A DNA stretch of 64,000 bases from an uncultured Lachnospiraceae bacterium (GTDB lineage Bacteria; Bacillota; Clostridia; Lachnospirales; Lachnospiraceae), in the NCBI GenBank assembly GCA_902780385.1, contig CACZFF010000016.1, positions 30,880 to 94,879 on the forward strand, written 5' to 3'. Shown in pieces: positions 9,749 through 41,387 of this stretch. The notes beneath the pieces are model-generated. The model saw only the letters and a program-made list of their open reading frames with translations, did not search any database and had not been told where the DNA came from. The first letter of the stretch is position 1, and every line of letters begins with the position of its first letter. Both the position numbers and the translations under genes were made by a program.

Positions 9749-12700
9749 TTACTCCGCCACAGCGCTCCGTATATTCATAACCAGCATCTGCAGGCGGTTC
9801 TCGACGTTGACAAAGCTGACGTCGGGATCATAGTCGAGGGGCAGCAGCTGTATATCCGGGAACATCTCTTTGAGGCGTCTGGAAATACCGCGGCCCACGA
9901 CATGGTTGGGGATGCAGCCGAAGGGCTGCAGGATGACGAAGGCGCGGCAGCCTTCGCGGGCACGCTCGATGATCTCGGCCGGGATCAGGATGCCCTCGCC
10001 GGAGTCATAGGCACGGGGAATGATCGGGTCACTGGCCTTGGCGACATCTGTCAGCTTGGCGGCCGGCTCAAACAGAGGATGCTGCTTTGCAACAGAGGCC
10101 ACAAAGTCGTGGGAAGTATTGAAGATCTGCTCGACCAGATCAAGATATCCTCTCTCTACAATGGATTTTTTGACGCCGTAATCCTTTGCCTGCTCGCGGC
10201 GCACAAAGTAGGTCTTCTGTATGACATCCGCCATCTTGGCCTCGATGATCTCAAAGCCGTTTTTCTCCAGATAGGCCTCTATATCGTGGTTTGCGCCCGG
10301 ATGGAAATTGAGCAGATACTCACCGACGATCAGGACAGTCGGCCTGGGATTGGACCGGTCATAGGGCACTTTCTTCATCAGGCGGATAGCCTTCTCAAAG
10401 CCCTTCTTCATCTTTCCGACACCGCCGTGCTCGATGGAATCCATCAGCACGTCCAGTGCTTTTTCGAAGGTTTTGTCAGCGATTCCCTCCACGGTCTCAT
10501 AGGGACGCATTTTGCGCAGGAGGTCCTCCAGCGCATCGATCATGGGAAGGGCAAAGGAAATCTTGATCATGGCCTGGAGATTGAGTTTGAATCCGGGATG
10601 AAGGTTGTGGTAGTCGACGTCATCGTTGGTGATGATCGGCACATCCGTGTGTCCCGCGTCGTCCAGGGCTTTGCGGAGCAGGGCCCCGTAATGGGTCAGC
10701 CGGCAGCAGCCGATATATTTGCCCATCATAACCGCTTTCTTCTTTCCCGCATATTTGGGATCCTCGATGGCCTGCAGGGCTTCGCCGATGACCACCTGGG
10801 CCGGGAAACAGATATCATTGTGGACATAGCGTTTTCCCAGCTCGATCGCCCGCTCACGCCCTATGGGAAGCGGAACAGTGTGAACCTTCTGGGCCGCGAA
10901 AACAGCTGCCATCAGACGGCTGAAGGCATGAGAAGTATTGGGCACAAAGACGACTGAATCTTCAATGTCTTCCTTCTGGAATTTCTGCGGATAGGGGTCT
11001 GTGAGGTCCCTGACCTCTCCGGGGCGGAAAGGCCTGGGGGCAGGCGCACCTTTTTTCAATTCGGAAATATCCTGCTTCTGCGCAGGGAATACAGGCACCT
11101 CATCCGGATTCTCCTTCTGCTTCGCGGCAGAGATCATCTGGATCTGCAGGGCTTTCCTGCGCTTCATCCTGACGGAGGAGTCAAAGGAGCGGATGCGGAT
11201 GGAAAGAGGTCCCCGGATATCACTCTCGTCAACCTTGAGGATCAGGGGAGTCTTGCCCGAGATCTCCTTCATCATTCGGATGATCTCATCGGAGAGATAG
11301 GCGTCATGTCCGCATCCGAAACTGACGACCTGGACATACTCCAGATTGGGGTGCTGAGCCGCGTAGATCGCGGAACCCAGCATCCTGGCGTGGTAATTGT
11401 TGACCACATCGAGGCGGCTCTTTGACAGATCGATCTTATCGAGTCCGGGAATGGAATCCGCTGTCAGCACGCTGATCCCCTGCTCGATAAACATCCCGGG
11501 AATATTGTGATTGACCAGGTCATCATTCTGGTAGGGCCGGGCGGCGAGGACCACTGCGCCGGGTTCTTCCGCAGGAGCGGTCCGGATCCCGTCAAGCACC
11601 TTCTGTCCCTGCTCGAGAAGCTTTTCGCGGTAGGTATCCTGGGCGGACTGACCCTCCCGGATCGCCTTGCGGACAGTCTTTGCAGGGATCCCGAAGGTGT
11701 CTTTCATGAATTTCGACAGCTGACGCTCCCGGTCTGTGTCCGTGTACCAGAAAAAGACAGGCACATCGTATTTGACGTCCCCGCGTTCCTCGGGATTATC
11801 GGAGTTTTTGATGACAAGAGGGAATCCTTTGACGATTCCGCACATGGAGACACTGGTGCTCTCCGTGTTCTCGGATTTTCTTGTTGAGATCGACGGGAAA
11901 AAGATCCTGTCCGCCCCGTTCTGTTCCAGCCAGCGTATATGTCCGTGCACCAGTTTTGCCGGGAAGCACTCGGTGTCAGACGTCACCGCGTGCAGACCTT
12001 TTTCATAGATCGGTCTTGTGCTCTCGGGAGATACCAGGACATCAAATCCCAGCGAGCTCCAGAAGGTCTTCCAGAAGGGAAGGGTCTCCCAGTATGCCAG
12101 AACGAGCGGAAGCCCGATCGTCACATCCTTCCTGCCGTCAACCCGGGTGAAAGGATAATCGCGCAGCAGGAAGGTCTTACGGACCTTGAAAAGGTCCGTT
12201 CCCCTCTTCTTTTTCTTCGGTGCGCTGCCGGCCGCAGATACGGCTGTATCCTTCCCGGCATCCTTTGTATCCTGTTCCAGAACCGACTTTTTGACGCCCG
12301 AGGCGGCTGCGGCCGTGTTTTTCACAACGGCTGTGACTCTGTCCGCAGCTGACGCAGCCGTGTCCTTGATGGGTGCAGGGACTTTGTCCGCGGCTGATGC
12401 GGCAGTCTCCTTCACCGTGGCAGTCACTTTATCCGCGGCCGAAACCGCAGTTTCTTTCACCGTGGCAGTCACTTTGTCCGCAGCCGATGCCGCGGTCTCC
12501 TTCACTGTGGCAGTCACTTTGTCGGCCGCCGAAACCGCAGTTTCTTTCACTGTGGCGGTCACTTTGTCTGCAGCCGATGCCGCGGTATCTGCCGCAGTGG
12601 CTGCTGTATCCACCACTTTGGTCGCAACGATAGCCGCTGCAGTTGCAGCTGTATCCGCCACTGCAGATGTAACTCTGTCTGCAGCAGTAGCTGCTGTATC

Positions 12701-14983
12701 CTTCACTGCAGATGTAACTCTGTCTGCAGCAGTAGCTGCTGTATCCTTCACTGCAAGAGTCACTTTGTCCAGAACAGAGTCGGATGTCTTATGATCTGTT
12801 TCCACCTTTTCCTGTCTCTGCGTAGAATCGGAAACTTCCGTTTTCACAGCATCGGATCTGTTCTCTTCATTTGCTGCACTTACTGCACTCTGTCTGGGGA
12901 TCGTTCTCTGAGCGGGAACAGTCCTCTGCGTGAGCTTTTCCTCCTGTGCCTGATCCTGAGAGGCAAGGAAAGTTTCGAGTTCACCCGGCTTGAGCATACT
13001 TCCGCGCTCGCACCTGTTCCCGGTGATCCAGGTATCGCCGGTAGAGAAAGTGACCACACTGCGGCGGCAGTGGTTCTGGCAGCCATTGCAGACCAGTCCG
13101 TTGACCTGGGTAAAAGTAAAATCATGCAGAGCTTCAAATCCGATGAAGGTGGTAGGCGCGCCGGACCTGCGGGCTTTCTCCATGGCTGTATGCGCGGCGC
13201 CGATTGCTCCCATAAGGCCCGGATAGGGCGCACGGACAACTTCCCTGCCTATATACTGTTCGATCGCGCAGAGTACCGCGTCATTGCAGAAAGTACCGCC
13301 CTGAACGACGATCCTGTCCCCCAGGGAATCCAGGCTGCTGATGCGGATGACCTTTGTAAAAACATTCTCAATGATGGAGCGGCAAAGTCCGGCCAGAATA
13401 TCGTTGACCTCCCGGCCGTTTTTCTGCTCGGTGATAATACGGCTGTTCATAAAGACCGTGCAGCGGCTTCCCAGCACAGCGGGGTGCTCCGCGGCAAAGG
13501 CGCGCTCCGCGATCTCCGTCGTGGCAACGCCCATGTTTTTGGCAAAATTTTCCAGGAAGGAACCGCAGCCTGCGGAGCAGGCCTCGTTGACCACGATGTC
13601 CGTTATGATGCCGTCGTCGATCCAGATCGCCTTCATGTCCTGGCCGCCGATATCCAGGATAAAAGTGGCATCCTCCAGATACTTGGCGCTGGACCGGGCG
13701 TGGGCAACCGTCTCAACAATGTGCGTATCGGCGCGGAAGGCCTTGGCTGCCAGCAGTTCGCCGTAGCCGGTCGTCGCCATACCTCTGACATGGAGCCTGA
13801 TGCCCTCTGCCGCGAACTTTTCCTCCATCTCGATCAGGCCCTTTCTCAGGACCGAAATGGGATCACCGCCGTTGTTGGCATAGAAGGAATACAAAATCCT
13901 CTCTTTTTCATCGAGAAGGACAAACTTGGTCGTTGTGGAACCGCAGTCGACACCGAGATAGCAGCCTGCATTTGTGCCCGTGTCAAGCTTGCGGAAAATA
14001 TGCTTGTCTTCGTACAGGGGATGACGCCTGAGGAAAGCCTGATAGTCCGCTTCCGTCGCAAAAAAGGGGCCGGATTTGGAAGTCTCCTCCTCAACATCCC
14101 TGCGCCCGATCAGGGCGCGGATCCTGTAAATGCACTTGTCGAGATCGAAGTGATCGGATGCACCTGCAGGAGTGCCCGCATAAAGGGAAGCGCCGAGCGC
14201 AACCATGAGCTCAGGCTGCTCAGGGATCAGAATATCCTCATCCTTCAGCTCCAGCTTTTCCCGGAAGGCCTGGACCAGGGTCGGATGGAAGCAGAGAGGG
14301 CCGCCCTCGAAAATAATAGGCGGCGCCATGATCAGACCCTGGGCAAGACCGCCTATGGTCTGTTTGGAAATGGCATGCAGCGCCGACAGGGCGATATCTT
14401 CTTTGCTCACGCCCTGGTTCAGCAGAGGCTGGATATCTGTTTTTGCATAGACGCCGCAGCGGCCTGAAATGTCATAGAGCTGTGTGCCGCGCTCCGCCAG
14501 AGACTCATACTCCTCCGGCTTCACCTGCAGCAGAGCCGCGATCTCGTCGATGAAGGCCCCCGTGCCGCCGGCACAGCTTCCGTTCATGCGCATGTCCGAG
14601 ACTTCCAGTCTTCCTGTCGTTTTGTTCCGGCGGAAAAAAATCACCTTTGCGTCCTGACCGCCCAGCTCAATGGCAGTCCTGGCAGACGGATAATATTTCA
14701 TGACAGCAAGAGAATTCGCCACGACCTCCTGCACAAAAGGTACGCCGGCTGCATCGGCCAGGGGCTTTGAGCCCGAACCTGTAAAAGCAATCTGCAGACT
14801 GCTGCCCGCAGGAATACGTTCCTTCCCGTGCTCCAGCAGGGTACAGACACTTCTTGCCAGCTCGGCGTGGTGCCTCGCGTATTCACTATAGACTATTTTT
14901 TCATCTGCTTTCCGTAAAACGACAATCTTTGTGGTCGTAGAACCCACATCTATGCCGATCAGATATTCCTGATTCTGATTCAT
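9749..14983 (-). CDS. giant two-headed 2-hydroxyacyl-CoA dehydratase activase-like protein with LEA-like linker
   Basis: A 1744-residue protein of the BcrAD/BadFG plus DUF2229 architecture. Order: first ASKHA ATPase domain (about 1-270; GIDVGSTTTKIVVL, NGSCAGGTGAFIDE), second ASKHA domain (about 340-610; GVDCGSTTTKFVLL, NEACSAGCGSFLENFA), a cysteine segment CNGCQNHCRR, an alanine-rich repeat linker (about 730-920), then DUF2229 and dehydratase-subunit-like parts (about 930-1740; FPAKLVHGHIRWLEQ, CFPAQVVIGEAL, GKYIGCCRLTHYG). Canonical activases use ATP to push an electron into a dehydratase; the role of these large fused versions is not established. The linker repeats are very unusual for the family. 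No dehydratase subunit genes are adjacent. Confidence 0.9.
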   Translation of the reverse strand: MNQNQEYLIGIDVGSTTTKIVVLRKADEKIVYSEYARHHAELARSVCTLLEHGKERIPAGSSLQIAFTGSGSKPLADAAGVPFVQEVVANSLAVMKYYPSARTAIELGGQDAKVIFFRRNKTTGRLEVSDMRMNGSCAGGTGAFIDEIAALLQVKPEEYESLAERGTQLYDISGRCGVYAKTDIQPLLNQGVSKEDIALSALHAISKQTIGGLAQGLIMAPPIIFEGGPLCFHPTLVQAFREKLELKDEDILIPEQPELMVALGASLYAGTPAGASDHFDLDKCIYRIRALIGRRDVEEETSKSGPFFATEADYQAFLRRHPLYEDKHIFRKLDTGTNAGCYLGVDCGSTTTKFVLLDEKERILYSFYANNGGDPISVLRKGLIEMEEKFAAEGIRLHVRGMATTGYGELLAAKAFRADTHIVETVAHARSSAKYLEDATFILDIGGQDMKAIWIDDGIITDIVVNEACSAGCGSFLENFAKNMGVATTEIAERAFAAEHPAVLGSRCTVFMNSRIITEQKNGREVNDILAGLCRSIIENVFTKVIRISSLDSLGDRIVVQGGTFCNDAVLCAIEQYIGREVVRAPYPGLMGAIGAAHTAMEKARRSGAPTTFIGFEALHDFTFTQVNGLVCNGCQNHCRRSVVTFSTGDTWITGNRCERGSMLKPGELETFLASQDQAQEEKLTQRTVPAQRTIPRQSAVSAANEENRSDAVKTEVSDSTQRQEKVETDHKTSDSVLDKVTLAVKDTAATAADRVTSAVKDTAATAADRVTSAVADTAATAAAIVATKVVDTAATAADTAASAADKVTATVKETAVSAADKVTATVKETAASAADKVTATVKETAVSAADKVTATVKETAASAADKVPAPIKDTAASAADRVTAVVKNTAAAASGVKKSVLEQDTKDAGKDTAVSAAGSAPKKKKRGTDLFKVRKTFLLRDYPFTRVDGRKDVTIGLPLVLAYWETLPFWKTFWSSLGFDVLVSPESTRPIYEKGLHAVTSDTECFPAKLVHGHIRWLEQNGADRIFFPSISTRKSENTESTSVSMCGIVKGFPLVIKNSDNPEERGDVKYDVPVFFWYTDTDRERQLSKFMKDTFGIPAKTVRKAIREGQSAQDTYREKLLEQGQKVLDGIRTAPAEEPGAVVLAARPYQNDDLVNHNIPGMFIEQGISVLTADSIPGLDKIDLSKSRLDVVNNYHARMLGSAIYAAQHPNLEYVQVVSFGCGHDAYLSDEIIRMMKEISGKTPLILKVDESDIRGPLSIRIRSFDSSVRMKRRKALQIQMISAAKQKENPDEVPVFPAQKQDISELKKGAPAPRPFRPGEVRDLTDPYPQKFQKEDIEDSVVFVPNTSHAFSRLMAAVFAAQKVHTVPLPIGRERAIELGKRYVHNDICFPAQVVIGEALQAIEDPKYAGKKKAVMMGKYIGCCRLTHYGALLRKALDDAGHTDVPIITNDDVDYHNLHPGFKLNLQAMIKISFALPMIDALEDLLRKMRPYETVEGIADKTFEKALDVLMDSIEHGGVGKMKKGFEKAIRLMKKVPYDRSNPRPTVLIVGEYLLNFHPGANHDIEAYLEKNGFEIIEAKMADVIQKTYFVRREQAKDYGVKKSIVERGYLDLVEQIFNTSHDFVASVAKQHPLFEPAAKLTDVAKASDPIIPRAYDSGEGILIPAEIIERAREGCRAFVILQPFGCIPNHVVGRGISRRLKEMFPDIQLLPLDYDPDVSFVNVENRLQMLVMNIRSAVAE
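12300..12790 (-). repeat. in-gene tandem repeats encoding LEA-like amphipathic helix
   Basis: About ten 15-residue units of the form DKVTATVKETAASAA are encoded in tandem (45-base period; several units share higher identity as alternating pairs ending AVSAA and AASAA). They are rich in Ala, Thr, Lys and Val and lack Gly and Pro, resembling late-embryogenesis-abundant group repeats. They sit between the ATPase half and the DUF2229 half of the activase-like protein. Confidence 0.85.
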
Positions 14984-15438: not shown

Positions 15439-16497
15439 TCAGGAGGACCCGGGCAGCGTGGAAACACTTTCTATATTCAGCGGTCTCTCGTACAGAAAAG
15501 CTGTTCCGCAGTAAGAGCAGCGTTTTGCCTGCAGATCGATACTTGCCCCGCAGAAGGGGCATTTTACCAGGTTCAGGCCCGCTTTCTGATGAAGTCCTGC
15601 GTGGCCGCTCTTTCTGAGCCGGATGCGCTTTACGGTCTCATCCGACCAGACCTTGTCCTTTTCTCCGCTGACAAGCCTGATCGATACATCTGTCGTGACA
15701 TAGACTTTTCCATCCTGAGCAGTCAGATTCTGGCCCCTGTAATCCAGCACATCAAAATCAATTATATTCCTGGTCTCATCAGTATCCGAACCGAAATAAT
15801 AGTCGCGCAGGCCCAGGTTGAGATTGTTGACGAACATGCCCATGCTCAGACCGTTTGCCTGAAGATCTCTCAGAAAACGTTCCATCACAATGTCCTGCTC
15901 GTGTTTCTTTTTCACCTCTTTCGAAGTCAGGGAAGCCCGATACTTCATCCCGCTGTAAATCAGATAGATGACTCCTCCTGCTATCCCGCCGATCAGAGCC
16001 CCCTTGCCGTAGTCGAACACTGTGGAAGTGCGTCCTGTAGTGACCGTTATGATCATTCCTGCCACTATACAGACCGCCATGATCAGCACCAGAGGGAGAA
16101 GAAGGCCCTTGCGCTCCTGCACCACATAGTCACTGTGATCCCGGCCGCCCGGCAGTTCCTTCTGATAATCCATGTTATAAAAAGCTCCGCAGTATGGACA
16201 GCCGTCCGAAAACAGGGCATCTTCACCTATGCCGCCGCAGTTGGGGCACTGGACGCGGCCGTCCTCAGTTGCCGGAAAGATAAAGGAATAGAGCATGCCG
16301 GGATTGAACTCCGTCTCCTGGTGCATCAGTTTCCCATGCATGTAATATTTTTTCGCCAGGATCACACCGGAGTTGACATCATCTGTTTTGGTGTGATCAC
16401 TTCTGCGGATCCTGACTGCCCCTCTGTCATAATAATCAGTTTCAATCAATGCGTCCTTCTTGTGAAGCCGCTGTTCATGGACCTTATCGCTGATCAT
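15439..16497 (-). CDS. zinc-ribbon membrane protein, possibly Tim44-like
   Basis: A 352-residue protein with two four-cysteine zinc ribbons: CPNCGG ... CPYCG (about 97-116) and CPFCGA ... CSYCG near the C-terminus. Two adjacent hydrophobic segments (LLLPLVLIMAVCIVAGMII and GALIGGIAGGVIYLIYS) anchor it in the membrane. The segment after them (FLRDLQANGLSMGMFV and KVYVTTDVSIRLVSG) could be a Tim44-like domain, but I am not sure. It is the last gene of a four-gene minus-strand unit with the asparagine-tailed protein, the radical SAM enzyme and the LRR protein, 21 bases after the asparagine-tailed gene. Confidence 0.75.
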   Translation of the reverse strand: MISDKVHEQRLHKKDALIETDYYDRGAVRIRRSDHTKTDDVNSGVILAKKYYMHGKLMHQETEFNPGMLYSFIFPATEDGRVQCPNCGGIGEDALFSDGCPYCGAFYNMDYQKELPGGRDHSDYVVQERKGLLLPLVLIMAVCIVAGMIITVTTGRTSTVFDYGKGALIGGIAGGVIYLIYSGMKYRASLTSKEVKKKHEQDIVMERFLRDLQANGLSMGMFVNNLNLGLRDYYFGSDTDETRNIIDFDVLDYRGQNLTAQDGKVYVTTDVSIRLVSGEKDKVWSDETVKRIRLRKSGHAGLHQKAGLNLVKCPFCGASIDLQAKRCSYCGTAFLYERPLNIESVSTLPGSS

Positions 16498-16518
16498 TTA
16501 CGCATGCGCCCCCTGCCG

Positions 16519-16881
16519 TCAGTTATTATTATTATTGTTGTTATTATTGTTATTACTGCCGGATCCGCCGGAGGAGGAGGATGCCGCCCTCTGGGCTGCC
16601 AGATAAGCTGCTGTGTATCGAATGGACATTCCTGTTGCCGTAACTGCCACAGCCTCCATAATATCGGGGACATGACTGTTTGTTTTGATCTCCTCTACCG
16701 TTCCGTTTGTCAGCTGATTGAGAATTGTTCCGTCAGGTTTTCCGACCACACTAAGACTTTTCTTCGTACGCATTGACTCGTACAGGGATTCCAGCTGATC
16801 ATCAGTCAGGTCAAAATATTGGCGGAATTGATCGATGCCGATCCAGACAAACATTTCATTATAGGTGGACGGATATACCAT
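16519..16881 (-). CDS. small protein with Gly/Ser linker and Asn11 tail; candidate radical SAM substrate
   Basis: A 120-residue protein that I do not recognise. The first two thirds are folded-looking (MVYPSTYNEMFVWIGIDQF, LTDDQLESLYESM) and are followed by an Ala-rich stretch, SSSSGGSGS and a tail of eleven asparagines up to the stop. The asparagine codons are mixed AAT and AAC, so this is not a simple mononucleotide-type slip. Its ATG directly follows the TAA of the radical SAM gene, and its GGAGG ribosome site lies within that gene, so translation is coupled. Size, leader-plus-repetitive-core shape and position suggest a peptide modified by the SPASM enzyme; this is inference. Confidence 0.8.
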   Translation of the reverse strand: MVYPSTYNEMFVWIGIDQFRQYFDLTDDQLESLYESMRTKKSLSVVGKPDGTILNQLTNGTVEEIKTNSHVPDIMEAVAVTATGMSIRYTAAYLAAQRAASSSSGGSGSNNNNNNNNNNN

Positions 16882-18615
16882 TTATTTTTCCTCCATTGTC
16901 ACATAGTAGAATTCGAGATTCTGAAAGGGCAGATCGACTGCCTGTATATGGTAAAACGCATTGTTTTTCTGCTTGGAATAATGATAATCCCGAAGCGCCG
17001 CAGTGGTAAAGAATATATTGTTTGCCTGCACAGCTGAAAGATATCTGCCGTATCGCCCCAAAAAATGTGTAAGGTCGACCCGCATGTAGCCTTTCCGGTC
17101 CGAACTGTCTGCCTCAGCCACCTGCTTATAGATCATTTCATTGGCGATATGCCTCTGCTTGGTCCGACCTTCATCCCCATAGACAATAGTATCTCCTGTC
17201 AAAAGCTGTATATATAAAGCATTGTTCTCAGGATAGGAGCTCAAAACCTCAAAAATCCCTTCCCGGACATAAAGGATCACTCTGCTCTGCGGGGTAATAA
17301 AGGTAAAGACACGATTCTGTTTAATGATCTGGGATTCGAGAGAAAAATCATTTCCGTCAATGTTCAGTATAAACAGATCGGGATCGTAGATATAATGCAG
17401 GTTGGTATCCTGACGGATCAGGCTCCTCAGATCGGTGATCTGCCCGGGAAGCTTTGCCAGCGCATACTCTCCTATCAGATCGGGATGCATTTGGCAGACA
17501 TAATCCAGTGCATCAGGTCTGGGGTAAGCATGTCCCGGAATATTCCAGAGTTCATACAGTTCTTTCTGCAGAAGGCAGGTGTAGCTCCGCGCGCGTTTCT
17601 GCTGCCGCTTCACGAAGGGACATCCTGTCCTGCACAGATACAGATATTGGCAGTTTCCGCAGGCTTCATCAAAGCCGCAGGATGCATGAACCTCCCGGAT
17701 CTTCTGCGCCCCGGTCTCCATGATGCTGCGCATACTGTCCTGGTAGATATTCCCGTAATAGAAATCGGGATTCTTCTGTCCCCGGACACAGGAATAGATA
17801 TCTCCGTTCCTCTCCAGAAGATAGAATTTCTCCCCGCAGTTGACACAGTTGGTACAGTAGTCCGGCCCGAACTCTCTAAACCAGGCGCCCTTCAGCCCTT
17901 CCTCCAGTTCAGTCCCCTCAAATGCATCCCGGATCCCGCGGAAAAACTGCAGCTGCTCCTCTTCTGTGAGAGCATGCAGAAGGCTGCTGCTGTTTTCAAA
18001 GCCGATCATGAAGTTGAAATCCAGCATATCCAGACAGGTATTGCGATGCAGATACCAGATATCTTCAATCACCTCATCGATCCGCTCGAGATGCTCCCGG
18101 AAGATCGTTGCGGAAACTTTTTTATGGCTGGGCAGATCAGCCAGAAGAGCCACATTGGAGAGGATCTGATCCAGCGTGTCCTTACCGTCCTTTCCGACCC
18201 TGTATTGTCTGTGCAGGGACAAAGGCAGATCAATGCTGCCGCTCACCGAGACCCCGTATTCACGGACAGCGTCCATATGCCGGTCCAGGGCCAGGAGATT
18301 TGTCTTTATGTGAGGCTGACCGACCCGAAAGCCTGCGCCGGTCAAAAGGCCTCTGTTTTTCTCATAATATTCTGAAATATATGCAATTATGTCCCTAAAG
18401 TCCCCGGCATCCAGACAGGTCACTTCGCCGCCGTGCAGAGAAATATTAAAAGGAATAATGTCCTCCTGCCTGCACTTGTCCACTGCATAGACGAGAGTTT
18501 CCAGGGCAGAGTGTCCGGTCCGCAGATCTTTTGTCTCATCCTCCAGATAGCAGTAGCTGCAGGCCATATTGCATGCCATGGTAGGAACATAAAGCAAATG
18601 TATATAAGTATTCAT
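16882..18615 (-). CDS. radical SAM/SPASM domain protein, putative peptide maturase
   Basis: A 577-residue radical SAM enzyme. The SAM cluster cysteines are Cys15, Cys19 and Cys22 in CNMACSYCYLE. A SPASM-type cysteine-rich part follows (CTNCVNCGEKFYLLERNGDI, then CGNCQYLYLCRTGCPF and a later Cys), as in enzymes that modify ribosomal peptides or sulfatases. The last about 200 residues (from LRSLIRQDTNLHYIYDP) do not match a domain I know and may bind the substrate. AGGGAT lies before the ATG. It starts 12 bases after the LRR gene and abuts the asparagine-tailed gene, so these are one transcript. Family membership is sure; the substrate is inferred. Confidence 0.9.
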   Translation of the reverse strand: MNTYIHLLYVPTMACNMACSYCYLEDETKDLRTGHSALETLVYAVDKCRQEDIIPFNISLHGGEVTCLDAGDFRDIIAYISEYYEKNRGLLTGAGFRVGQPHIKTNLLALDRHMDAVREYGVSVSGSIDLPLSLHRQYRVGKDGKDTLDQILSNVALLADLPSHKKVSATIFREHLERIDEVIEDIWYLHRNTCLDMLDFNFMIGFENSSSLLHALTEEEQLQFFRGIRDAFEGTELEEGLKGAWFREFGPDYCTNCVNCGEKFYLLERNGDIYSCVRGQKNPDFYYGNIYQDSMRSIMETGAQKIREVHASCGFDEACGNCQYLYLCRTGCPFVKRQQKRARSYTCLLQKELYELWNIPGHAYPRPDALDYVCQMHPDLIGEYALAKLPGQITDLRSLIRQDTNLHYIYDPDLFILNIDGNDFSLESQIIKQNRVFTFITPQSRVILYVREGIFEVLSSYPENNALYIQLLTGDTIVYGDEGRTKQRHIANEMIYKQVAEADSSDRKGYMRVDLTHFLGRYGRYLSAVQANNIFFTTAALRDYHYSKQKNNAFYHIQAVDLPFQNLEFYYVTMEEK

Positions 18616-18627
18616 GCTTTATCCCTA

Positions 18628-19545
18628 TCAATAAAAGACCACTTTTGTAGGGCTTTCCTTGAAGGCCTTTTCGTTTATCTGAGTACCTAAGCGTATTCTG
18701 ACTGTTCTCAAGCAGTAACACCGGCGGAAAGCAGAGCTTCCGATGGAATTGACTGTACTGGGAATCGTCACTTGCTGCAGACTTTCACAGTCACAGAAAG
18801 CATGTCCGCCGATTCTGTAGACGCCCTCAGGGATATCGATCTCCTCAAGGTTCCTGCATCTCTCAAACGTGGAGCCGCGGATCTCTGTGATCCCGGTAGG
18901 AAGGGTGATATGCTTAAGGCTGTTCATATCCATGAACACATTTCCGCGGATCGCGGTAACCGCCTGCCCCTTATATGTTTCGGGTATGACAACCGTATCA
19001 TCCGGAATAAGTGCCATGGTATAATAGCGGAGCGCATATCCCTGATCTGATGCCTTTTCAAAAATCATGTGCGGCCGCATAAACAGCAGACAGGAAACCA
19101 CTGCGACCGCCAGCAGGGGCGACACCGCAAACAGGAGATTTCTCAGTCCTTTTTTCGCTCCGCTCACCTGACTGATCAGAATATTATCCAGGTTATCGTC
19201 CGGCCGCTTAATGACCTCACGGACCAGATACCTCTGCAGATTCTGTCTGTGGAAAAAGATCAGATAGAACAGGATCTCTCCAGCAATTAAAATGAATATA
19301 TAGAAATTATGATAGAGGGCGAAAAATACGATCTCAAGGAAAGCAGCTGCCGCAAGTACAAAAGATGCAGCCAGTTTTCTTTTTGATATTTCACTGGTTT
19401 CATAACCCTGCAAATGATTCTTTGAGAGAAAGACCTCTACATACCGGGTGAGCAGCTTTAACCCTGTCGCATCAGCTCGTATATTTTCAAATATTTCCTG
19501 CTTCTCCTCCTCATCCAAAGGGGCTGCAAGTACTGGTTCATTCAT
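18628..19545 (-). CDS. membrane protein with BspA-type leucine-rich repeats
   Basis: About 305 residues. The first half has hydrophobic segments (KLAASFVLAAAAFLEIVFFA, FYIFILIAGEILFYLIFF, LLFAVSPLLAVAVVSCLLF); the second half is a short LRR_5 domain of three to four repeats such as LKHITLPTGITEIRGSTFER and LEEIDIPEGVYRIGGHAF, probably outside the cell. Such repeats bind proteins or surfaces. I prefer the ATG at 19545, nine bases after GGAGG; an ATG six bases earlier is too close. It is the first gene of the radical SAM unit. Whether it takes part in export or display of the modified product is only a guess. Confidence 0.82.
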   Translation of the reverse strand: MNEPVLAAPLDEEEKQEIFENIRADATGLKLLTRYVEVFLSKNHLQGYETSEISKRKLAASFVLAAAAFLEIVFFALYHNFYIFILIAGEILFYLIFFHRQNLQRYLVREVIKRPDDNLDNILISQVSGAKKGLRNLLFAVSPLLAVAVVSCLLFMRPHMIFEKASDQGYALRYYTMALIPDDTVVIPETYKGQAVTAIRGNVFMDMNSLKHITLPTGITEIRGSTFERCRNLEEIDIPEGVYRIGGHAFCDCESLQQVTIPSTVNSIGSSAFRRCYCLRTVRIRLGTQINEKAFKESPTKVVFY

Positions 19546-19681
19546 ATTCATTGTCCTCCGACCACTTTATATAATCTATAAAAATCCAAATATCCAGGGT
19601 AAAGCATTGATTATATGCCGCACCTGTTTCATCAATAACGACATTGTATCATAAAAATCAAAAAATATACAATTTCCAGCT

Positions 19682-19930
19682 CTGCATGCTCTACATGCTC
19701 TGCAAATTGCCACAATCTGCATGTTCTGCAAACCGTCCACACTCTGCATGCTCTGCAAACCGGCCATACCCTGCATGTTCTGCAAACCGGCCATCCCCTG
19801 CATGTTCTGCAAACCGTCCACACTCTGCATGCTCTGCAAACCGGCCACACCCTGCATGCTCTGCAAACCGGCCACACCCTGCATGCTCTGCAAACCAGCC
19901 ACACCCTGTATGCTCTCCAAACTCGGGAGC
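19682..19930. repeat. 27-bp minisatellite between divergent genes
   Basis: Eight copies of a 27-base unit (CTGCATGCTCTGCAAACCGG plus CCACACC) start at 19717, 19744, 19771, 19798, 19825, 19852, 19879 and 19906, preceded by shorter 9-base fragments. Several frames on both strands are open because the period is a multiple of three, but no frame has a ribosome site or a plausible protein. The array lies upstream of both the LRR gene (minus) and trpB (plus). Confidence 0.92.
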
Positions 19931-21520: not shown

Positions 21521-21580
21521 CTGTCACAATAAAACGAGGCTGTTTCATTAATGCGTGACCTTGCACTTCCAGATCCGATA

Positions 21581-22260
21581 TGTCGCTTCGTTTTTTCGCG
21601 GCATGCGTGACCTTTTACTTGCCACCGCCTCCGGTCGCTTCACTCCCTCTGCCACAGTAGTGATCTTTTATTATTTCGACGCCAATGTCGCTTCGTTTTT
21701 TCGCGGCATGCGTGACCTTTTTCCTGCCACTGCATCCGGTCGCTTTGCTCCCTCTGCCACAGTAGTGATCTTTTATTATTTCGACGCCAATGTCGCTTCG
21801 TTTTTTCGCGGCATGCGTGACCTTTTTCCTGCCACCGCCTCCGGTCGCTTCACTCCCTCTGCCACAGTGGTGATCTTTTACTATCTCGACGCATATGTCG
21901 CTTCCTTTCTTCGCGGCATGCGTGACCTTTTTCTTGCCACCGCCTCCGGTCGCTTTGCTCCCTCTGCCACAGTAGTGATCTTTTATTATTTCGACTCCTC
22001 TGTCGCTTCAATTCTTCGCGGCATGCGTGACCTTTTTCCAACCACGGCCTCCGGTCGCTTTGCTCCCTCTGCCACAGTAGTGATCTTTTACCATTTCGAC
22101 TCCTATGTCGCTTCCTTTCTTCGCGGCACGCGTGACCTTTTTCTTGCCACCGCCTCAGGTCGCTTTGCTCCCTCTTCTACAGTGGTGATCTTTTACTATT
22201 TCGACGACTATGTCGCTTCAATTCTTCGCCGCATGCGTGACCTTGGGCTTCCGGATCTGG
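21581..22260. repeat. 105-bp tandem array, copy 1
   Basis: Six full 105-base units start at 21581, 21686, 21791, 21896, 22001 and 22106, and a shortened one at 22211. Each contains TGTCGCTTC, a GGCATGCGTGACC core, GGTCGCTTTGCTCCCTCTGC and AGTGATCTTTTA. A plus-strand frame of 280 codons stays open only because the period is a multiple of three. Read on the minus strand each unit ends LASK followed by two stops. The same unit recurs at about 39.3-39.9 kb. No gene is supported in 21337-22508. Confidence 0.95.
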
Positions 22261-39267: not shown

Positions 39268-39860
39268 TGTCGCTTTACTCTTTCGTGGCATGCGTGACTT
39301 TTCTTTTTTTCGACGGCTCTGTCGCTTTATTTTTTCGCATCATGCGTGACCTTTTGCCCGACAAGGCCTCCGGTCGCTTCGCCCCCTCTGCTGCAGTAGT
39401 GATCTTTTACTATTTCGACATCTCTGTCGCTTCGCTTTTTCAAGACATGCGTGACCTTTTGTCCGCCAACGCCTCCGGTCGCTTTGCTCCCTCTGCCTTA
39501 GTAGTGATCTTTTACTTTTTTGACGTCCCCGTCGCTTCGCTTTTTCAAGACATGCGTGACCTTTTGCCCGAAACGGGCTCCGGTCGCTTTGCTCCCTCTG
39601 CCGCAGTAGTGATCTTTTACTATTTCGACGTCCCCGTGCCTTCATTTTTTCGCAGCATGCGTGACCTTTCTCTTTTTCGACGGCTCTGTCGCTTCACTTT
39701 TTCAAGGCATGCGTGACCTTTCTCTTTTTCGGCATCTCTGTCGCTTCGCTTTTTCAAGACATGCGTGACCTTTTGCCCGACAAGGCCTCCGGTCGCTTCG
39801 CCCCCTCTGCCACAGTAGTGATCTTTTTCTATTTCGACATCTCTGTCGCTTCGCTTTTTA
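39268..39860. repeat. 105-bp tandem array, copy 2, with shortened units
   Basis: Same unit as the array at 21.6 kb. Unit starts at about 39268, 39320, 39425, 39530, 39635, 39687, 39739 and 39844; three of the intervals are 52 instead of 105 bases because the middle of the unit is missing. A plus-strand frame stays open for most of it but has no ribosome site. Nothing else is seen in 39083-40224 apart from the hairpin at 39943. Confidence 0.93.
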
Positions 39861-40536: not shown

Positions 40537-41387
40537 ACTGCCTCCTTTCTGCCGCGAAGCAGCGTGAGTATCAGCGTAATCAGCAGCATAGCCGGGATCA
40601 GAAAACGTCCCGGGCCGAAAATAACCAGACAGACGAGTGTGCTCAAAAGTCCCGTCAAAGCGGGGATATGATCGTCTGAAGTCAGCCACTGCCCGGTAAA
40701 TGAAGCAATGAAGAGCGCCGTCATGGAAAACTCGATTCCTTCCGTGGAAAAAGGCAGAACTGTACCCAGCAGGCTCCCCAGTACACTCCCGCTCACCCAA
40801 TAGCTCTGATTGAAAGCAGTCACCAGAAGCCGGTAGAGATTGGGATCTGAGCCCTCCGGTGTTTTCCCGTCACAGAGAAGAGAATAGGTCTCATCTGTAA
40901 GGCCGAAGATCATATAAGGTTTGCCTTTTCCTGCATCCTTGTAGCGGTCCACCATGGAAATACTATAAAACAGGTGTCTGGCATTGACCATGAATGTCGT
41001 TACGGCCGTGGTGATGACCGAGGCTCCTCCCGAAAGGAGACTTACGCCGACATACTGCATAGATCCGGCATAGATAAAGAGGCTCATGGAAAAAGCCCAC
41101 AGGACCCCGTATCCCGCATTTCGCATCAGGATCCCGAATCCCATTCCGAGAACAACATAGCCTGCCATCACCGGCAGTGTGTTAAAAAACGCCTGTTTTA
41201 CTGTGTTTTGATGATTCTTTTGCTGGTTCTTTTGCTGATTCTTTTGCTGGTTCTTTTGCTGATTCTTTTGCTGATTCTTTTGCTGGTTCTTTTGCTGATT
41301 CTTTTGCTGGTTCTTTTGCTGGTTCTTTTGCTGGTTCTTTTGCTGGTTCTTTTGCTGGTTCTTTTGCTGATTCTTTTGCTGGTTCAT
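40533..41387 (-). CDS. azlC: branched-chain amino-acid exporter AzlC with NQQK-repeat N-terminus
   Basis: Large subunit of the AzlCD exporter. From about residue 60 it is normal: VKQAFFNTLPVMAGYVVLGM, GFGILMRNAGYGVLWAFSMS, NARHLFYSISMVDRYK and later membrane helices. Before that, about 14 copies of Asn-Gln-Gln-Lys form a hydrophilic extension not usual in AzlC. No alternative start is found between the repeats and the first helix, so the extension is probably translated. The ATG at 41387 lacks a close ribosome site; a GTG at 41399 is also possible. It would face the cytoplasm. Confidence 0.88.
   Translation of the reverse strand: MNQQKNQQKNQQKNQQKNQQKNQQKNQQKNQQKNQQKNQQKNQQKNQQKNQQKNQQKNHQNTVKQAFFNTLPVMAGYVVLGMGFGILMRNAGYGVLWAFSMSLFIYAGSMQYVGVSLLSGGASVITTAVTTFMVNARHLFYSISMVDRYKDAGKGKPYMIFGLTDETYSLLCDGKTPEGSDPNLYRLLVTAFNQSYWVSGSVLGSLLGTVLPFSTEGIEFSMTALFIASFTGQWLTSDDHIPALTGLLSTLVCLVIFGPGRFLIPAMLLITLILTLLRGRKEAV
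41218..41386 (-). repeat. 12-bp tandem repeats at the azlC 5' end
   Basis: About 14 units of AACCAGCAAAAG, with C/T variation in the Asn codon, encode NQQK repeats. The period of twelve keeps the frame when copies are gained or lost. Confidence 0.93.

Follow-up and report, generated by a model that had tools for sequence, protein, structure and literature searches.

A stretch of 64,000 nucleotides on contig CACZFF010000016.1 of an uncultured Lachnospiraceae bacterium, hereafter the window, carries a tight run of four minus-strand genes encoding a leucine-rich-repeat (LRR) membrane protein, a radical SAM/SPASM enzyme, a 120-residue protein ending in asparagines (Asn) and a zinc-ribbon membrane protein. 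The enzyme and the Asn-tailed protein are a real, conserved pair with a second setting in phages, where the Asn tail belongs to a tail fibre. The association with Asn tails in both settings suggests an undescribed chemical modification of such tails: we put the probability of a dedicated system modifying C-terminal asparagine tails at about 0.6. An initial annotation, made from the letters of the window alone, had described the four genes, their tight order and their domains as we find them, with the reservation that the zinc-ribbon Pfam matches stay below curated cut-offs. It proposed an undescribed system resembling those of ribosomally synthesised and post-translationally modified peptides (RiPPs), a label that we weigh in the Discussion.

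The enzyme and the Asn-tailed protein are encoded together

We found the unit in 32 genomes including that of the window, many of them rumen or gut metagenome-assembled genomes (MAGs). A scan of genome contigs with the enzyme gave 19 loci (L009-L027, 54-83% identity); two further genomes were found among 397 of the window's family, and ten among 288 of the order to which G799 belongs, G799 being the genome of L018 and bearing the title Bacilli bacterium. All 32 genomes encode both the enzyme and the small protein, as the initial annotation had anticipated in saying that the two go together. On every contig that extends beyond the enzyme gene, the small gene comes next, and the two overlap or abut in 22 of 24 loci. 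In the window, the enzyme's TAA stop (16884-16882) abuts the ATG of the small gene (16881-16879), whose GGAGG ribosome-binding site (16890-16894, minus strand) lies within the enzyme gene; both details had been read correctly from the start.

Among the 288 genomes of one order, 15 match the enzyme profile, and these are also the 15 that match the small-protein profile. The corresponding chance, 1/C(288,15) = 2.4e-25, is only a guide, because the genomes are related and the first scan had already yielded five of the 15. A second sample (4 and the same 4 of 95 genomes) is no replicate, since it was drawn from the same order and all its listed genomes but G801 are in the first. The unit is rare elsewhere, with 3 of 397 genomes in the window's family and 2 of 398 in its phylum, the window's genome being counted in both. 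A search of the 397 family genomes with the single small-protein sequence returned only itself; as the profile finds homologues in two of those genomes, the single query is too weak. Against plasmids, the small protein gave no match.

In the tree, L007 (from the window's family) and a Bacteroidales MAG are placed among Bacilli sequences, which suggests transfer; the MAG could also be mis-binned. Record titles of the 19 scanned loci name rumen, abomasum or cecum in five cases and Lapin (rabbit) in two; five belong to the RUG and RUI series, which we take to be rumen, and seven are uninformative.

A conserved Asn run on a variable protein

The small protein (16519-16881, minus strand), our proposed substrate, consists of an N-terminal part of about 100 residues, the Ser/Gly linker SSSSGGSGS (residues 101-109, 16555-16581) and a run of 11 Asn encoded by mixed AAT and AAC codons (residues 110-120, 16522-16554). 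We compared the 27 complete small proteins, those of L010, L013, L024, L090 and L096 being cut by contig ends. Each of the 27 ends in an uninterrupted Asn run with at most one residue after it, and each has a Ser/Gly-rich stretch ahead of it. The run measures 5 residues in L023 and 9-16 in the other 26; it is followed by R in 13 proteins, H in six and G in one, and by nothing in seven. The expectation that homologues would bear different but repetitive tails failed: all 27 are pure Asn runs.

The rest of the protein diverges rapidly. Across 24 loci, the median pairwise identity is 28% for the small-protein N-terminal parts versus 63% for the enzymes. The two identity matrices nevertheless agree (r 0.875, reached in 0 of 5000 permutations), an agreement also to be expected of linked genes that descend together.

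Codon use speaks against repeat slippage, which we considered as the origin of the run. The 27 runs hold 198 AAT and 149 AAC codons (347 in all), and in five close pairs of runs 5-8 of 11-15 third bases differ while the amino acids are unchanged. Neighbouring codons alternate beyond expectation (139 identical neighbours, where shuffles average 161 and 73 of 20000 fall as low), the opposite of what slippage produces. Moreover, the 26 runs of at least 8 Asn codons in 443,820 bases (both strands of the window and 31 loci) all lie within the small gene, which is more than chance. The contigs of four MAGs (L013, L024, L090 and L096) stop within the Asn-codon run, so that the small gene can appear truncated in assemblies.

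Neither NCBIfam nor Pfam gives the window's small protein a match above cut-off. A Polycomb EED insert model is matched by 9 of 17 small-protein homologues (best E 1.8e-4); in the PDB search this model matches the linker and Asn run, which fits the Ser/Asn-rich end of the homologues. The small-protein profile also matches poly-Asn in the linkers of maltose-binding-protein fusions in PDB.

A radical SAM/SPASM enzyme with its own C-terminal domain

The enzyme (577 residues, 16882-18615, minus strand) matches Pfam Radical_SAM (E 4.9e-9) and, above cut-off, the SPASM model TIGR04085 (40.1 bits, cut-off 27). Radical SAM enzymes carry the motif CX3CX2C, and SPASM domains CX9-15GX4C...CX2CX5CX3C...C. 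Both are present: Cys15, 19 and 22 together with Cys254, 260, 276, 319, 322, 328, 332 and 347 are invariant in 24 of 24 bacterial and in two phage enzymes, which supplies the cysteines expected for three iron-sulfur clusters, and Gly271, between Cys260 and Cys276, is invariant in 20 of 20 enzymes. An extra cysteine, Cys257, is found in 24 of 24 bacterial enzymes; the position is Ser in L010 and Val in the phage relative of L144. Radical SAM peptide epimerases use a Cys as hydrogen-atom donor.

The C-terminal domain (residues 395-577, 16885-17433) bears the motifs YGDExRxK and FFTTxxxRxYHYxK. For 18 members, this region of about 200 residues has no Pfam match better than E 0.05, and against PDB it gives two weak partial matches (best E 0.0058). 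From position 370 on, 29 residues are invariant across 11 bacterial and two phage enzymes.

Among the best 25 of 49 NCBIfam models, the SPASM domain model is the only one that the enzyme satisfies at cut-off. The best full-length models both stay below theirs: DynA with 85 of 450 bits, and the anaerobic sulfatase maturase model (TIGR03942) with 84.2 bits against 349.45. Radical SAM and SPASM domain models excepted, neither the window enzyme nor the small protein reaches any curated family cut-off, in support of the initial reading of the system as undescribed. Searches of the literature brought up no description of a poly-Asn radical SAM substrate or of this enzyme-partner pair, most subscription papers being outside reach; the available part of the paper that terms CJIE1 a Mu-like phage reports no comparable system (PMC8743553).

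A reading as a defence system was dropped, with weak viperin and LmuB matches only. We also set aside 14 loci (L028-L041) with 20-30% identity over the radical SAM half only; in 10 of them, no open reading frame (ORF) with six Asn in a row occurs within 2.5 kb of the match.

Phage relatives accompany Asn-ended tail fibres

The bacterial enzyme profile A1 matched none of the viral contigs searched. In plasmids, the enzyme matched 24 records, one of them at full length (32.5% identity over 99%, E 5e-89), in a Campylobacter coli record holding a Mu-like prophage. Phage CAM-P21, recorded from chicken in Japan, encodes a protein identical to this prophage enzyme. The prophage gene stands among tail genes in the order fibre, 211-residue protein, enzyme, DUF1353, 334-residue protein and tail sheath; the fibres of the C. 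coli prophage and of CAM-P21 both end in SGSTNNNNY. In these phages, the fibre tip would be the end that contacts the receptor.

The PHROG family phrog_1802, a phage 'radical SAM domain-containing protein' that includes the CAM-P21 enzyme, matches the window enzyme along its full profile (enzyme residues 10-569, profile 49-549 of 556, E 6.4e-37). Its profile also matches in 14 of 14 control genomes, as well as further radical SAM proteins encoded by the window's genome, with matches confined to the first two thirds. As partial matches are so widespread, only the full-length match is telling. The partner is Asn-tailed in the Campylobacter-type prophages as well; this setting differs from the bacterial unit in that the partner is a tail fibre, a protein of 210-220 residues stands between it and the enzyme, and there is no LRR or zinc-ribbon gene.

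Scans of IMG/VR added 12 contigs with the phage enzyme, called Campylobacter-type by similarity (enzymes 63-100% identical); in the C-terminal domain, the least alike are L132 (69%) and L140 (55%). All 12 fibres end in Asn, with NNNNY in seven, GNNF in three, GNNS in one and NNNNN in one, and in all 12 an ORF of 210-220 residues separates fibre and enzyme.

As a control, we searched with the neighbouring tail protein I and obtained 32 loci, leaving out L146 and L149, which end before the fibre, and the distant L174-L176. Eight of the 27 control loci have the enzyme, and all eight fibres are Asn-ended; of the 19 without the enzyme, none is. The probability of this division is 4.5e-7 if the contigs are independent. 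Taking all 12 contigs against the same 19 gives 7e-9, four of the 12 having been found via the enzyme and many contigs being close relatives. In the 19, the fibre is followed instead by a gene of 164-170 residues, which has no blastp match to the 211-residue protein at 1e-5; DUF1353 directly follows in 17, and the contig ends soon after in L153 and L162. Among 388 distinct ORFs of at least 100 residues in the examined loci, 14 end in NN or in NN plus Y, F, S or N, all of them with fibre-tail ends.

The 51 residues before the last nine of 12 fibres (L120, L122-L132) fall into five blastp groups at E 1e-3, and into four when 61 residues are taken: the tips differ while the Asn end stays. Within L145-L173, one locus of Campylobacter-type Mu-like prophages offers two alternative fibre-tip cassettes, the first made of the Asn tip, the 211-residue protein and the radical SAM enzyme, the second of another tip and the 164-170-residue gene. 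A recognition motif common to the small protein and the phage 211-residue protein was sought and not found (hhalign E 0.12).

A more distant full-length relative, 38% identical to the Campylobacter enzyme, lies beside fibre-like genes on the 96.7-kb viral contig L144. Here (L144:2128-7436) the enzyme gene adjoins those of a fibre-like protein and of a 172-residue protein whose C-terminal part is rich in Cys; the enzyme family may have a different target in this setting.

Membrane proteins and gene neighbourhood

The LRR membrane protein (307 residues, 18628-19551, minus strand; the ATG at 19545, taken as start by the initial annotation, is the second one) matches Pfam LRR_5 (E 3e-25) and has an LRR domain of the BspA type. 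Hydropathy predicts three spans (residues 60-78, 83-101 and 139-157), and by the positive-inside rule the LRR domain is predicted to lie outside the cell. Its gene is directly upstream of that of the enzyme in 31 of 31 loci covering this stretch (split into two ORFs in L017), a count that leaves out three further loci beginning within the enzyme gene. A 27-bp tandem repeat of 8.5 copies (19694-19922) sits directly upstream of the LRR gene in the window.

The zinc-ribbon membrane protein (352 residues, 15439-16497, minus strand) comprises a zinc ribbon, the membrane span or spans and a cytosolic part with a second zinc ribbon. Its Pfam zinc-ribbon matches are at E 2.6e-5 and weaker; the cysteines C84, C87, C100 and C103 and C313, C316, C327 and C330 are invariant in 16 of 16 aligned homologues. 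One span exceeds the hydropathy threshold in the window protein and two in its homologues, and would lie between the two zinc ribbons. A Tim44-like domain, considered as a candidate, is not among the best 25 of 83 Pfam families. In 23 of 32 genomes, the gene immediately follows the small gene. Searching the other nine, along with G071 from among the 23, placed it on another contig in five of the nine and gave no full-length match in four; in G791, one of these four, the search returned weak partial matches only. In three of the five it starts 32, 51 and 55 bases from a contig end, which is what a break of the assembly in the Asn repeat would produce. The remaining two of the five are Bacteroidales MAGs.

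Besides the genes of the unit, no family is common to more than four of the 28 loci compared. Seven families present at three or four loci were checked: ABC-type ATPases (4), M16 peptidases (3: L016, L022 and L023), an AbgT-type transporter, YchF, SSB, LemA and one without a Pfam match. In L023, the M16 peptidase gene is the next one after the small gene. Across the 28 loci, neither a protease nor a transporter family is a regular neighbour, a result that concerns linked genes only.

Other repeats in the window

Two arrays of similar 105-bp repeats lie far apart, at 21579-22244 and 39308-39859. A 1744-residue protein (9749-14983), presumably a fused 2-hydroxyacyl-CoA dehydratase activator, contains a repetitive insert with DNA repeats at 12329-12755. 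The 12-bp repeat TTTTGCTGGTTC occurs in 15 copies at 41206-41385.

Discussion

What the two settings have in common is the enzyme, with its radical SAM, SPASM and C-terminal domains, and a C-terminal Asn run. One enzyme family accompanying Asn tails on two unrelated proteins means that the enzyme very probably either acts on the tail or docks there, and the simplest reading of the shared run is that it is the substrate. The gene order, the pairing, the constancy of the Asn run and the matching association in phages are direct observations; from comparative sequence analysis, we infer modification of the Asn tail, Asn as the modified residues and any role at the surface.

We propose that the radical SAM/SPASM enzyme, with its own C-terminal domain, would recognise its partner's C-terminal Asn run and modify it repeatedly. 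In Lachnospiraceae and Bacilli MAGs, the partner would be the 120-residue protein translated along with the enzyme, and in Campylobacter-type Mu-like prophages the tail-fibre tip. In bacteria, the LRR protein outside and the zinc-ribbon protein inside probably keep the modified protein at the membrane or make use of it there. The chemistry may be an iterative change at Asn, either epimerisation at C-alpha or functionalisation or cross-linking at C-beta; we deem iterative Asn chemistry the most likely because the Asn run is the only constant feature. PoyD- and EpeE-type radical SAM epimerases act on repetitive substrates, Asn-rich for PoyD; we liken them to our enzyme as a chemical analogy only. 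The odds seem even that the family rewrites homopolymeric C-terminal Asn tails, for instance to D-Asn or cross-linked forms, with bacteria doing so on a membrane small protein and phages on fibre tips. A cyclophane involving an aromatic linker residue was rejected: the last nine residues before the run hold no aromatic in the window, L009 and L011, which makes such a ring unlikely for the window's linker.

Several observations count against tail modification as we propose it. The run is short in phages (2-5 residues, against 5-16 in bacteria), and what closes the protein after it differs from case to case (Y, F, S, R, H, G or none). Among the 12 phage enzyme genes, two seem disrupted: that of L130 close to its 3' end, and that of L140/L157 (one contig), which is in two pieces. 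The 12.6 kb examined of L144 hold no ORF with four Asn in a row; Asn tails thus mark part of a wider phage-associated enzyme family and are not universal in it. The small-protein profile itself contains the Asn run, and homologues without a run could be missed by it. The zinc-ribbon gene was not found in the related genomes G957, G971 and G1013, MAGs that may be incomplete. Finally, a co-conserved Asn tail could be a docking handle.

This last alternative, in which the enzyme would dock on the tail and modify another site, be it the Ser/Gly linker, the N-terminal part or another protein, we consider unlikely, and yet the most serious of the four that we weighed. The tail is homopolymeric and variable in length, as binding tags can be; a Ser/Gly linker is likewise retained (27/27); and the phage ORF of 210-220 residues, present in every one of the 12 contigs, could be the real partner. 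Against it, the N-terminal part is not common to the small protein and the fibres, and the Asn run, mostly preceded by Ser, Thr or Gly, is.

It is distinctly improbable that the small protein is the leader-core precursor of a secreted RiPP, with the Asn core modified, cut off and exported. A precursor-like gene does adjoin a dedicated SPASM enzyme in overlapping or abutting frames, its N-terminal part is the rapidly changing one, and genes for ABC-type ATPases (4/28 loci) or M16 peptidases (3/28) are sometimes near. SPASM RiPP maturases (DynA, GrrM/OscB, PapB, DarE, AmcB and YhhB in NCBIfam) are moreover among the best-scoring models for the enzyme, and they share with it the small substrate-like gene next door. 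However, all of them remain far below their cut-offs, the tail is pure Asn without a conserved aromatic or Cys partner, and the unit has no regular processing genes, no such family exceeding 4 of 28 loci. The supposed core is invariant in kind, and the phage counterpart is a tail fibre, a part of the virion. What the initial annotation called RiPP-like is supported as far as a precursor-like gene beside its dedicated enzyme goes (32/32), but not as a secreted RiPP, for which a protease or transporter would be a regular neighbour; the RiPP label is premature. The same annotation had named enzymes regularly lacking the small gene as evidence that would count against the pair: there are none in the bacterial unit, but the small gene is absent in phages, where an Asn-tailed fibre takes its place.

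Oxidation of a linker Ser to formylglycine, in the manner of anaerobic sulfatase maturases, is very improbable. These enzymes (TIGR03942; PDB 4k36) are alike in the radical SAM and SPASM region, with residues 12-342 aligned; 4k36 and 4k37 are the only PDB matches of the whole-enzyme profile (E 4e-5), and a Ser lies near the run in all 27 bacterial tails. Yet our enzyme misses the family model by far, as seen above, adds a C-terminal domain of about 200 residues and belongs to a conserved unit without a sulfatase gene, while in phage tails the residue adjoining the run is Thr, Ser, Gly or Cys. In anaerobic sulfatase maturases, the Asp after the second SPASM Cys is catalytic. By alignment, the residue in its place after Cys276 is Val in 24 of 24 bacterial enzymes and His in the two phage enzymes, and formylglycine formation is unlikely for this reason.

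We give next to no credence to an unmodified spacer or aggregation-prone tail without enzymatic meaning: poly-Asn is known from the fusion linkers matched in PDB and is discussed for prion-like domains, but one enzyme family is paired with two unrelated Asn-tailed proteins, and the purity of the run and its codon use against slippage point the other way.

If tail modification is true, a C-terminal Asn homopolymer on a folded protein would be an added class of target for radical SAM chemistry, and a bacterial system would be linked to the maturation of phage fibres. The Asn run together with this enzyme would provide a simple signature for finding more such systems. It would also mean radical SAM modification of the receptor-binding end of a virion, and the enzymatic modification of phage receptor-binding tips would become testable.

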